64,000 bases of DNA from Luteithermobacter gelatinilyticus (GTDB taxonomy: Bacteria; Pseudomonadota; Alphaproteobacteria; Sphingomonadales; Emcibacteraceae): positions 812,501-876,500 of the forward strand of contig NZ_CP040517.1 in NCBI RefSeq assembly GCF_005849285.1, given 5' to 3'. Position 1 is the first letter of the stretch, and every line of letters begins with the position of its first letter. The position numbers were made by a program, and so were the translations under genes. This document shows positions 12,485 to 59,327 of this stretch, piece after piece. The notes under the pieces are model-generated. The model searched no databases, was not told the DNA's origin, and worked only from the letters and a program-made list of their open reading frames with translations.

Positions 12485-12650
12485 AGCGGCTGGGGAATGT
12501 CGCGCCGGTATGTCCTGATATAGCAGGAAAGACAGACTGCCATAGTTGTGAGGGCGGTGTTTTTGAACGCCAGTAGTCTGAGATTGGGTTTCGATAAAAA
12601 AGACGAGTATTTTTATAATAAGGCGAGTATCATTTTCCCCACAAAACTTT

Positions 12651-12677
12651 AAAGGCGGGCCAAAACCCGCCTTTTTT
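12651..12677 (+). terminator. Rho-independent terminator of ftsZ
   Basis: AAAGGCGGG (12651-12659) pairs with CCCGCCTTT (12666-12674) around a 6-base loop and is followed by a run of T. It lies about 165 bases after the ftsZ stop and would end the dcw transcript. Confidence 0.85.
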
Positions 12678-12774
12678 ATTGGGGCCTTCTTCATTCTTTG
12701 AGGTCACGCCCTTGTCCAAATATATGGTGCGGGTTCCCGATGACGTTGTTCTGTCATCCTTGCAAGTGAGGGGA

Positions 12775-12809
12775 AGCGACGCCATCCACAAAGCCTATGG
12801 GGCGTCGCT
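12775..12809. repeat. REP-like hairpin in the ftsZ-hppD gap
   Basis: AGCGACGCC (12775-12783) and GGCGTCGCT (12801-12809) are perfect inverted arms around a 17-base loop. The flanking GATGACG and GTCATCC bits look like those of dispersed palindromes common in alphaproteobacteria. The 620-base gap 12485-13104 holds, in order, the terminator, this hairpin and the MITE-like element. No credible gene is seen in it. Confidence 0.5.
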
Positions 12810-12824
12810 CCGGAAGGAGGGAAT

Positions 12825-13107
12825 TAGAGTGAATTGTGCATAGGTTGACCCATTCTGCCGGGCCGGTCTGGTTCAGGAGCCAGGGGTTTGGCGCAGGTCA
12901 TACTGGCGGTACGGCCCAGCCAAATCCCTCAGGAACCGGGCCAGACCGGCCCGGCCCTTCGGGTTGGCGGCTTGGGGCCGCTCACTTTGTCAGACGCCTG
13001 GGTCAGACGCCTGGCCCGATGCCCCGCATCGCCCGGCGCCGTCTTCCGCGTGAGGCGGGCCGCAATCCGCAAACAGAATTGAGCCAACCTCTTCACAATT
13101 CACTCTA
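12825..13107. mobile_element. MITE-like element, 283 bp, TA-flanked
   Basis: The ends are imperfect inverted repeats of about 35 bases. The left end reads TAGAGTGAATTGTGCATAGG; the right end, read on the other strand, starts TAGAGTGAATTGTG and continues into GAGGTTGGCTCAATTCTG. A TA lies at each boundary (12825-12826, 13106-13107), as expected for a TA target duplication. Inside is a long imperfect hairpin (arms 12860-12871 and 12941-12952, inner arms near 12882 and 12920) and a 13-base tandem duplication (12989-13001, 13002-13014). There is no transposase frame. The right end supplies the TAG stop of hppD. Related copies lie at 26957, 35149 and 53198. Confidence 0.7.
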
Positions 13108-14157
13108 AATCACGCCGCGGCGGATCTGATCCAGCTCGATGGATTCAAACAATGCCTTGAAGTTGCCTTCGCCAAAGCCCTTGTTGCCCTTGCGCTGGAT
13201 AATCTCGAAAAAGATCGGGCCAATCACATTGTTGGTGAAGATCTGCAACAGAATGCCCTGATCTTTGCTGCCGTCGATCAGAATGCGGCGTTTGCGCAAT
13301 TCTTCCACGTCTTCCTCGTGACCGATCACCCGATCGTTAACCAGCTCATAATAGGTGTCTACCGTATCCTGTAACGGTACGTTATGAGCCCGCAGAACAT
13401 CCACGGTTTTGTAGATATTTTCTGTATGCAGGGCTACGTGCTGAATGCCTTCGCCGCGATATTCCATGAGATATTCCACAATCTGGGACTTGTTGTCCTT
13501 GGATTCATTCAGTGGAATATGGATCTTGCCGCAGGGGCTGGTCATGGCCTTGCTGGTCAGGCCGGTTTTCTGCCCTTCGATATCGAAATATTTCAGTTCC
13601 CTGAAATTAAACAGGCGTTCATAAAATTCCGCCCAGAATGCCATGCGTCCCTGATAAACATTATGGGTCAGATGGTCGATGAACTGGAACCCGGCGTCTT
13701 CGACATCCTTTTCATCGTCCAGTTCAATGGGCACAAAATCCACATCATAAATGGTATTCTCGCCATACCGGTCCACCAGATAAAGACGGCTGCCACCAAT
13801 GCCTTCTATGGCCGGGATATACAGTTCCATTGGCGCCACATCGGTTGGAACCGGGTTGGCGCCAAGGCTCAGGGCGCGTTCGTAAGCGTATTTGGCGTCC
13901 TTGACCCGGAAGGCCATGGCGCAGATGCTGGGGCCGTGGGCGAAGGCATAACGTTGGGCAAAACTGTTGGGTTCTGCGTTGATGATGAAGTTCACATCGC
14001 CCTGACGGTGCAAAGTGACGTTTTTGTGCCGGTGCTTGGCTACGGTTCTGAACCCCATCTGTTTGAACAGACCACGCAGCATTTCCGGGTCCGGCGCAGC
14101 ATATTCGATAAACTCAAACCCATCCAGGCCCATGGGATTTTCAAAAAGATCAGCCAT
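13105..14157 (-). CDS. hppD: 4-hydroxyphenylpyruvate dioxygenase
   Basis: HPPD is an Fe(II) enzyme that turns 4-hydroxyphenylpyruvate into homogentisate in tyrosine degradation. The protein shows two glyoxalase-like halves, with FIDHLTHNVYQGRM (first metal His), GIQHVALHT (second His) and FFEIIQRKG (metal Glu), then the conserved GFGEGNFKALFESIELDQ tail. A frame of 359 residues is open. The internal ATG at 14157 has AGGAG at ideal spacing and gives 350 residues (MADLFENP start). The TAG stop is formed by the edge of the MITE-like element. An Lrp-family regulator is divergent upstream. No homogentisate dioxygenase gene is nearby. Confidence 0.95.
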   Translation of the reverse strand: MADLFENPMGLDGFEFIEYAAPDPEMLRGLFKQMGFRTVAKHRHKNVTLHRQGDVNFIINAEPNSFAQRYAFAHGPSICAMAFRVKDAKYAYERALSLGANPVPTDVAPMELYIPAIEGIGGSRLYLVDRYGENTIYDVDFVPIELDDEKDVEDAGFQFIDHLTHNVYQGRMAFWAEFYERLFNFRELKYFDIEGQKTGLTSKAMTSPCGKIHIPLNESKDNKSQIVEYLMEYRGEGIQHVALHTENIYKTVDVLRAHNVPLQDTVDTYYELVNDRVIGHEEDVEELRKRRILIDGSKDQGILLQIFTNNVIGPIFFEIIQRKGNKGFGEGNFKALFESIELDQIRRGVI

Positions 14158-14210
14158 TACAGTCTCCTGATAAGATCGTGCCATTTATGTTTTACGGGGG
14201 AAATTATACT

Positions 14211-26956: not shown

Positions 26957-26990
26957 TAGAGTGAATTGTGCATAGGTTGGCTCAATTCTG
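26957..26990. repeat. Copy of the MITE-like terminal repeat
   Basis: TAGAGTGAATTGTGCATAGG plus GGCTCAATTCTG matches the left end of the element at 12825. Similarity continues weakly inside it (an ACAGGGGTTTCC...CAGGTCA segment near 27030-27055). No matching right end was found by 27300, so the copy is degraded or truncated. The gap 26923-27325 (403 bases) holds this copy, the following terminator-like hairpin and probably the bamD promoter. Confidence 0.65.
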
Positions 26991-26991
26991 T

Positions 26992-27028
26992 AAAGCCCCT
27001 CCCGCTCGACGGGAAGGGCTTTGTTTTA
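26992..27028 (+). terminator. Terminator-like hairpin after the chemoreceptor gene
   Basis: AAAGCCC (26992-26998) pairs with GGGCTTT (27016-27022), extended inward by CCCG/CGGG, and is followed by GTTTTA. It lies 70 bases after the chemoreceptor stop. It sits inside the repeat-derived region, so it may be part of the element. Confidence 0.6.
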
Positions 27029-27325
27029 CAGGACAGGGGTTTCCGATCAGGTCAGGGAACAAAGACCCCGGAGGGGGGCGGCGTTTTGCAGATCCGGCAG
27101 CTGGTCTGATTATTGGCTTGGCATGGCACTATTCGCGCCGTGAAAGGGTCTCTTGATCAGGAGCCGATCCGGATGTAAAAAATGGATTGGCTCTTTTCTG
27201 TTTCGGCATGCTATAGTCCGTGGCGGAATCGGATATAACTGATAATCTAGGGTTTATTTACCGGTTGGACTTTCCCGATTTTTTGGCGGGGAAAAGATCG
27301 CCGGTACTGACAAAACGGATCAAGT

Positions 27326-34395: not shown

Positions 34396-35151
34396 ATGAG
34401 CGTTAAAACAGTTACAGGTATAACCGCCGCTATCGCAGGACTGGCCTTTTTTTCCGCCCAGGCGGCTGAAAAGAGCTATGACCTTGCGGAATTCAATCGT
34501 ATTGAAATCAACAGCGGTGCAAATATTGATATCCGGGTCGGCAAAAAACAGGCTGTGAAGGTGGAAGCCGAAGACGACGTTCTGGATCATATGGATCTGG
34601 AGGTAAGCGGAAAGACTCTGGAGATCAACCAGAAACGACGACTGTTTTCAAGCTGGAGCGGGGCCCAGCCGAAAATCACGATCCGTGTGAAGGACTTGCG
34701 GGATCTGGAAATTAACGGCTCTGCGGACGGAACGGTTTCCGGACTGCGCGGGAAAAGCTTCTTTCTGGAGCTGAACGGGTCGGGAACGCTGGAACTGTCG
34801 GGGGATGTGGAACAGTTCGGTATTGAACTGAACGGGGCTGGCGACATTACCGCCCGGAAACTCAGAACCCGGAATGTGGACGTGGAAATTAATGGCAGCG
34901 GTGACGTGGCGTTTTCCGGAAAATGCAAAAGCCTCAGCCTGGAAATCAATGGTTCCGGAGAATTCGACGGCAAGGAGCTGAAATGCGAGGCCGGCGATGT
35001 GGAGATTATGGGTTCCGGCGATGCGTCGGTCTATGCCAGCGATATGCTGCGGGTCGAAATTATCGGCTCTGGCGATGTGGAAGTTTACGGTAAACCGGAA
35101 AAACTGCTTAAAGAGGTGCGCCGGAAAAGCCAGGTGGTGATCAAGGATTAG
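34396..35151 (+). CDS. Exported DUF2807 (GIN) beta-repeat protein, second of two
   Basis: A 251-residue paralogue of the preceding gene. A signal peptide (ITAAIAGLAFFSAQAA) is followed by many G-S-G beta units such as LEINGSADGTVSG, LELNGSGTLELSG, VEINGSGDVAFSG, VEIMGSGDASVYA and VEIIGSGDVEVYG. The ATG at 34396 is preferred over a TTG 12 bases earlier. The TAG stop is created by the TA-flanked repeat that begins at 35149; without the insertion the codon would read TAA at the same place. No enzyme motif is seen. Confidence 0.85.
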   Translation: MSVKTVTGITAAIAGLAFFSAQAAEKSYDLAEFNRIEINSGANIDIRVGKKQAVKVEAEDDVLDHMDLEVSGKTLEINQKRRLFSSWSGAQPKITIRVKDLRDLEINGSADGTVSGLRGKSFFLELNGSGTLELSGDVEQFGIELNGAGDITARKLRTRNVDVEINGSGDVAFSGKCKSLSLEINGSGEFDGKELKCEAGDVEIMGSGDASVYASDMLRVEIIGSGDVEVYGKPEKLLKEVRRKSQVVIKD

Positions 35152-35186
35152 AGTGAATTGAGCCAACCTATGCACAATTCACTCTA
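35149..35186. mobile_element. Minimal MITE-like copy at a stop codon
   Basis: A 38-base near-palindrome starting TAGAGTGAATTGAGCC and ending CACAATTCACTCTA, bounded by TA on both sides. Its arms are the two outer ends of the 283-base element at 12825 joined directly. The first three bases are the stop codon of the DUF2807 gene. Removing the element and one TA restores GAT TAA CGC. Confidence 0.7.
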
Positions 35187-47620: not shown

Positions 47621-47634
47621 CACAATTCACTCTA
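47621..47634. repeat. Remnant of the MITE-like terminal repeat
   Basis: CACAATTCACTCTA matches the outer 14 bases of the element exactly, 40 bases upstream of the ferritin-like gene. No second end is seen nearby. A 14-base match alone is modest evidence. Confidence 0.4.
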
Positions 47635-53197: not shown

Positions 53198-53236
53198 TGG
53201 AGTGAATTGTGCATAGGTTGGCTCAATTTACTCTAA
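53198..53236. mobile_element. Minimal MITE-like copy after the kinase gene
   Basis: A 39-base near-palindrome with GAGTGAATTGTGCATAGG at the left and CTCAATTTACTCTAA at the right, almost identical to the copy at 35149 but in inverted orientation. Its left flank has TTGG where TTAG is expected, so one boundary TA has mutated. It begins 10 bases after the kinase stop. Confidence 0.65.
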
Positions 53237-59314: not shown

Positions 59315-59327
59315 CAAATTCACTCTA
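59315..59327. repeat. Possible remnant of the MITE-like terminal repeat
   Basis: CAAATTCACTCTA shares 12 bases with the outer end of the 12825 element (CAATTCACTCTA with one added A). No partner end is seen. The match is short and could be chance. Confidence 0.25.

Follow-up and report, generated by a model that had tools for sequence, protein, structure and literature searches.

The genome of Luteithermobacter gelatinilyticus harbors a MITE family that is new but of a well-known type, with a resident IS630-family element as its likely parent, together with an abundant and unusual 38-bp palindromic product. Comparisons of the ends, the target sites and the resident transposase support the assignment of the MITE family to the IS630 kind. 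In the interpretation that we regard as probable, the non-autonomous MITE has been moved by an IS630 transposase, and the 38-bp palindromes are mainly deletion scars of former MITE sites. The analyzed window of 64,000 nt corresponds to C1:812501-876500 of the source genome, which consists of one contig (C1) of 3,145,891 bases; coordinates without the prefix C1 are positions in this window.

Structure, copies and target site of the MITE

The full-length MITE of the window is located at 12825-13107 (plus strand) and has a length of 283 bp, counting both TAs. It starts with TAGAGTGAATTG, ends with the complement of TAGAGTGAATTG and carries TA on both borders. The left terminal inverted repeat of about 34 bp (12825-12858, plus strand) is of the TAGAGTGAATTGTGCATAGGTTGACCCATTCTG type; the right one (13074-13107, minus strand), also of about 34 bp, is of the TAGAGTGAATTGTGAAGAGGTTGGCTCAATTCTG type and resembles the left end of the IS630-family element described below. 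The outermost 14 bases of the two ends pair perfectly, and the arms at 12816-12852 and 13080-13116 (37 nt) are 81% complementary. An internal hairpin at 12857-12955 (plus strand) has perfect arms of 15 nt (12857-12871 and 12941-12955), and two tandem copies of the 13-nt unit GTCAGACGCCTGG, which place the element in the two-unit class, are present at 12989-13014 (plus strand). The single-strand fold of the MITE was calculated at -83.2 kcal/mol compared with -55.1 ± 3.8 kcal/mol for shuffled sequences (z = -7.4; equaled by none of 200 shuffles). The ORFs inside the element (90 and 64 aa) matched no Pfam family at E ≤ 1, and a search of positions 12500-13400 against Rfam returned no family at E ≤ 0.1. 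The imperfect inverted ends, TA borders, internal hairpin and lack of a transposase described in the original prediction were thus borne out. With lengths of 269-296 bp in the genome and ORFs devoid of a Pfam match, the elements are short and non-coding; the available portion of one source gives a size range of 70-300 bp for MITEs (PMC3733652).

A lack of further copies would have spoken against the original prediction. Full-length alignments with 89-100% identity and different flanks were found at 26 or more places dispersed over the genome, a lower bound since 40 of 255 candidates were scored. Fourteen of the 26 MITEs have a length of 270 bp, seven of 283 bp and two of 296 bp, the rest being 269, 275 and 295 bp long. 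The 270, 283 and 296 bp classes are set by the copy number of GTCAGACGCCTGG, which is present once, twice and three times, respectively. Pairwise divergence averaged 5.2% among the 10 copies of the longer class and 4.3% among the 16 of the shorter class, and the closest pairs differ by less than 1%, which indicates that some copies moved recently. Among 60 genomes of relatives, the own genome included, four matched the MITE at E ≤ 0.001; the other three matches were partial (E from 5e-5 to 4e-4) and none was full-length, this set and the set of 295 genomes used below being without a second genome of the genus.

The motif TAGAGTGAATTG was found 11 times in the window with up to two mismatches (3.3 expected; 11 was reached in none of 100 shuffles) and 241 + 230 times in the genome with up to one mismatch, compared with 3 + 3 for the reversed control. 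At 26957-26991 (plus strand), where a degraded relative had been suspected, a solitary right end of the MITE was identified (35 bases, 94% identity to the MITE right end); as no partner end was found for it, the designation as a degraded full copy had to be abandoned. Directly after this end, a G+C-rich hairpin with a T run (26992-27030) resembles a transcription terminator of the host. Two other ends of the TAGAGTGAATTG type, at 47623-47634 and 59316-59327, adjoin other interiors (TGTGATGAGAATCACG and TGCGCCATTGATGACC) and perhaps belong to other subfamilies.

Insertion of the MITE duplicates TA and prefers CTAG. The target reads C|TA|G for 13 of the 26 MITEs and Y|TA|R for 22. For the 38-bp palindromes the corresponding numbers are 36 and 93 of 102 (from 105 rows, after removal of one MITE end, the window's solitary end and a larger element at 647400), as against 2.1% and 12.7% when all TAs of the compared sequence are counted. 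Moreover, the MITE copy at C1:941409-941678 interrupts a second repeat, and its flanks, joined at a single TA, align gap-free to three uninterrupted copies of this repeat over 159-164 bases with 82-83% identity. The original prediction would have been called into question by an empty site without a TA target; the intragenomic empty site reads CACAC|TA|GA and carries one TA in CTAG, so that in this one genome the TA was duplicated by the insertion. The second repeat is itself bordered by CTAG, has a length of about 167 bp and is present in 13 full copies. It seemingly consists of two tandem TA-bordered palindromic elements, TAGTGTGG..CCACACTA and a part ending AGAAGACTA. An element of the TAGAGTGAATTG type is located at its right border in seven of the 13 full copies (in one of them without GAG) and is absent from six.

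Occurrence and origin of the 38-bp palindromes

Two end-only copies of the MITE had been predicted at 35149 and 53198. Instead of isolated ends, both proved to be complete 38-bp palindromes, one with TA borders at 35149-35186 (minus strand) and one with the left TA mutated to TG at 53198-53235 (plus strand). In the genome 124 such palindromes were detected with up to three mismatches in 24 fixed positions (reversed control: none), outnumbering the full MITEs by about 5 to 1, and 295 other genomes of the order contained none. The flanks of the palindromes are mostly unrelated to each other. In the consensus TAGAGTGAATTGTGAATAGGTTGGCTCAATTCACTCTA, ACTCTA follows the initial 32 bases of the MITE right end. 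In 464 kb, made up of the window and 20 stretches at even spacing, ends that paired at a plausible size gave elements of 38 bp in 17 cases and of 37 bp in two, with one case each of 29, 90, 119 and 283 bp; a further three pairs, spanning 1.2-2.9 kb, are probably due to chance, and for 22 ends (up to one mismatch) no partner was found. A 29-bp class, approximately TAGAGTGAATTGTGATNAGATTGACTCTA, was observed at C1:1242296, 1595286, 394201 and 1743669, two of the four adjoining a 38-bp palindrome. A divergent 38-bp subfamily with unchanged ends and length and a center near TGATGAGATCGA was observed at C1:476276, 594358, 1394273, 2426372 and 2993685.

The following mechanism is proposed. The IS630-family transposase would bind the ends common to the IS and the MITE and excise the latter, which would then be pasted into the TA of a CTAG-like site with duplication of the TA. 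By replication slippage or by microhomology-guided repair after excision, the MITE would suffer a deletion between its CAATTC direct repeats, which lie at the base of the hairpin, and the 38-bp palindrome would be left. This product would retain both terminal TAs without offering space for two full transposase sites and would therefore be a largely immobile scar. Surviving insertions are often located exactly at stop codons, the terminal TAG serving as stop. In this genome, many former MITE sites probably contain just a 38-bp palindrome by now.

Within the outer 45 bases of the MITE consensus, CAATTC is the only direct repeat of more than 4 nt common to both arms, and the deletion product predicted from it differs from the 38-bp consensus solely at position 17. 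When the six short products predicted from repeats of at least 4 nt were compared with sequence that had mostly been selected for 38-bp palindromes, the 38-bp product matched 84 places, a 37-bp product two (one of them within a 44-bp form) and each of the remaining four none. Positions 15 and 17 vary both among the MITE ends and among the palindromes, position 17 being G or T in MITE ends. Divergence from the own consensus over the first 24 bases was 6.6% for the palindromes (95 analyzed here and for linkage, seven divergent ones of the 102 being left out) and 4.0-4.2% for the MITE ends; the higher value suits older remains but equally an older burst. Arms and center of the palindromes changed by 2.8% and 10.9%, a contrast that carries no weight because the copies were found by their arms.

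Several observations stand against the scar interpretation. G at position 17 was found in 13 of 26 MITE right ends and in 6 of 95 palindromes (p = 1.4e-6). The shorter MITE class (269-275 bp), with G in 4 of 16 copies, fits the palindromes better than the longer class, with G in 9 of 10. The palindromes are in excess over the MITEs, few intermediate lengths occur, and in the genome sets, which are without a second genome of the genus, no site was found where a MITE of one genome corresponds to a palindrome of another. In an alternative that we consider unlikely, a single deletion gave rise to a 38-bp element with overlapping ends that was multiplied in trans by the transposase to about 124 copies. 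A uniform length, mostly unrelated flanks, CTAG-like targets as for the MITE, the scarcity of intermediate forms in the 464 kb and the deviating position 17 all suit such an element. The transposed element would then comprise no more than 36 bp and a single duplicated TA, its two ends would overlap, and it would need an unusual pairing of ends, e.g. of two copies in trans or in an extruded hairpin. For ISY100 the likely minimum is 24 bp per end, according to the available text of the source (PMC2170065). A 38-bp element would be crowded, because two such sites would overlap, and by this measure, taken over from ISY100, the palindrome does not possess the two complete ends and the length of at least about 70 bp that characterize a MITE. 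The variation at positions 15 and 17 shared with the MITE ends does not readily fit a single founder. In addition, linkage among the variants of the palindrome, as a sign of subfamily structure, was not significant (p = 0.081), other deletion products (37 and 44 bp) are present, and no intragenomic empty site of a palindrome was found in the 712 kb compared, where joined flanks matched, apart from their own sites, only beside other elements. The agreement with the CAATTC product, the polymorphism common to the MITE ends, the lack of significant linkage and the site overlap thus favor repeated formation of scars.

A resident IS630-family element as the likely parent

An IS630-like parent had been postulated for the MITE, to be sought as an IS630-type transposase gene bounded by MITE-like ends. 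Such a gene was found at two loci, in IS630-family elements of 1058 bp at C1:115698-116755 and C1:3066140-3067197, which agree at 1057 of 1070 aligned positions (99% identity). A search of the genome with the Pfam profile DDE_3 yielded two places, each inside one of these elements (126 bits; cut-off 28.6), and no DDE_3 gene elsewhere. With NCBIfam NF033545 (IS630 family), the second half of the coding region scored 155.7 bits (cut-off 100) and the first half 52.1 bits, below the cut-off. The transposase is encoded by two ORFs in different frames. Their junction, a stretch of eight A, hints at programmed frameshifting.

At its left end the IS reads TAGAGTGAATTGTGAAAAGGTTGGGTC and shares 25 of 27 bases with the right-end consensus of the MITE, as is expected of a MITE sharing its ends with an autonomous element, and this agreement supports the postulated parent. 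The IS ends read TAGAGTGAATTGTGAAAAGGTTGGGT and TAGAGTCTTTTGTTAATAGGTTTACG; 17-18 of the 26 terminal bases match between left and right, so that the IS has TA-bordered inverted ends. Related IS elements (67-79% identity) were found mainly in Alphaproteobacteria among the best 80 of 507 matches, in which the own genome may be omitted. Of these 80 loci 45 were examined and 44 gave an end pair, with TAGA at both ends in 34, the extraction presupposing TA borders.

Based on the shared end, the resident element is the likely autonomous parent of the MITE, and we infer that its transposase, or that of a close lost relative, moves the MITE. The variant in which a lost IS630 relative spread the MITEs and the present IS, with similar ends, is a recent arrival or a lone survivor appears rather improbable. 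It would account for the presence of just two, nearly identical IS copies with no other long fragment in the genome (two short matches of 41 and 28 bases were detected), for the divergence of IS and MITE ends beyond about 27 bases and for the poorer match of the right end TAGAGTCTTTTGTTAATAGGTTTACG to the MITE right-end consensus. Furthermore, with 99% identity between the IS copies and a mean divergence of 4-5% among the MITEs, a large part of the MITE family may predate the present IS. The close match of the IS left end, the lack of another DDE_3 gene and the recent movement of some MITE copies argue for the resident element instead.

Placement at stop codons and comparison with known systems

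The MITE at 12825-13107 supplies the stop codon TAG (13107-13105) of the gene for 4-hydroxyphenylpyruvate dioxygenase (HPPD; 13105-14184, minus strand), which is otherwise complete (aligned with TIGR01263 up to profile position 352 of 353) and would end with TAA if the MITE were absent. Ten of the 26 MITEs are located at such an ORF end. The gene context of the palindromes was evaluated for 83 of the 102 copies, 19 being without enough context, and for ORFs of at least 300 nt, not all of which will be genes. In 32 of the 83 an ORF is in frame with the first three bases of the palindrome, compared with 15.3% when the 38-bp sequence was placed at 1500 random Y|TA|R sites (binomial p = 2e-7). These 32 palindromes make 35 ORF ends, 34 at the first codon of the element and one 12 nt further in; removal of the palindrome would leave TAG at 21 of these ends and TAA at 14. 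ORFs entering the palindrome in other frames were rarer than by chance (12 of 83 versus 55.6%). As insertions within genes would be removed by selection, this placement is attributed to survivors and not to active targeting. That the palindromes are host elements retained for a function, e.g. as transcript terminators or mRNA stabilizers, is very unlikely: an RNA hairpin of about -14 kcal/mol and the position of 56 of the 83 palindromes, which on at least one side have an ORF (300 nt or longer) ending within 150 nt, would agree with it, but compensatory double changes in the arms numbered 2 versus 0.9 expected, the palindrome is absent from the 295 other genomes, and the TA/CTAG targets and MITE-derived sequence speak against it.

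A single genome contains the complete set: a likely IS630 parent, a MITE whose three classes differ in repeat number, an empty site, and a short product that is abundant and predictable in sequence. If the palindromes are scars, past MITE sites can be counted from them, and they offer a natural measure of hairpin deletion. If they move, they set a new lower size for a transposon, well below the range that the portion of the source cited above gives for MITEs (PMC3733652). The placement at stop codons illustrates that a gene can accommodate an element starting with TAG at its terminus without alteration of the protein.

A literature search of titles and abstract openings, with ISfinder and most subscription journals outside its scope, retrieved nothing on this MITE family or on 38-bp IS630 palindromes, and neither "38-bp palindrom" nor "38 bp palindrom" occurred in the papers scanned for these strings. 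The fixed 38-bp pattern was found in none of 12 genomes with related IS630 elements. A pattern of variable spacing was found in 2 of 15 (Asticcacaulis and another with two mutually differing matches), the control giving 4 of 15, and across the genus Asticcacaulis the palindrome pattern was found in 1 of 25 genomes. In Asticcacaulis solisilvae BE327, 16 palindromes of 39-41 bp (control: 3) and 47 + 44 matching ends (control: 1 + 1) were detected. They were dropped as independent elements of about 40 bp, since the flanks of 15 copies revealed the palindromes as one part of a longer repeat of about 102 bp. This repeat has TAGAGC ends, one half of it is a 41-bp palindrome, and it is probably an IS630-type MITE of that species.

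IS630 itself, as Tenzen and Ohtsubo reportedly found in 1991, prefers TA in 5′-CTAG-3′. The elements described here have this preference in common with IS630; the ends and the host differ, and the resident IS encodes its transposase in two frames. ISY100 of Synechocystis likewise belongs to the IS630/Tc1/mariner family and duplicates TA; in the accessible part of its description it transposes by cut and paste, mini-elements with 30 bp of each end are functional, and it has been characterized biochemically, whereas the element here is known from sequence alone (PMC2170065). Shortened MITE copies resembling repetitive extragenic palindromes are also described for QMITE2 of Coxiella burnetii, which, as far as the accessible text of the source extends, loses about 40 bases at one end including the terminal repeats, whereas the deletion here would be internal with both termini kept (PMC10969869). 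Like REP palindromes, which the partial text of the source describes as palindromic, extragenic sequences of 20-40 bp in high copy number, the 38-bp elements are short and numerous; unlike REP, tied to a tyrosine transposase, they have TA borders and a link to IS630, and the consensus has no GTAG/CGTC tag at one end (PMC3733652). In Streptococcus pneumoniae, the excerpts of two sources describe RUP (107 bp, about 110 copies) as a high-copy MITE whose ends resemble a resident IS630-family element, IS630-Spn1, and which targets TA; its movement by IS630-Spn1 is likewise a proposal (PMC3049150, PMC2229807). Unlike RUP as described in these excerpts, the MITE reported here has a length of 270-296 bp, at least 26 copies and a different sequence, and is accompanied by a more numerous 38-bp class.
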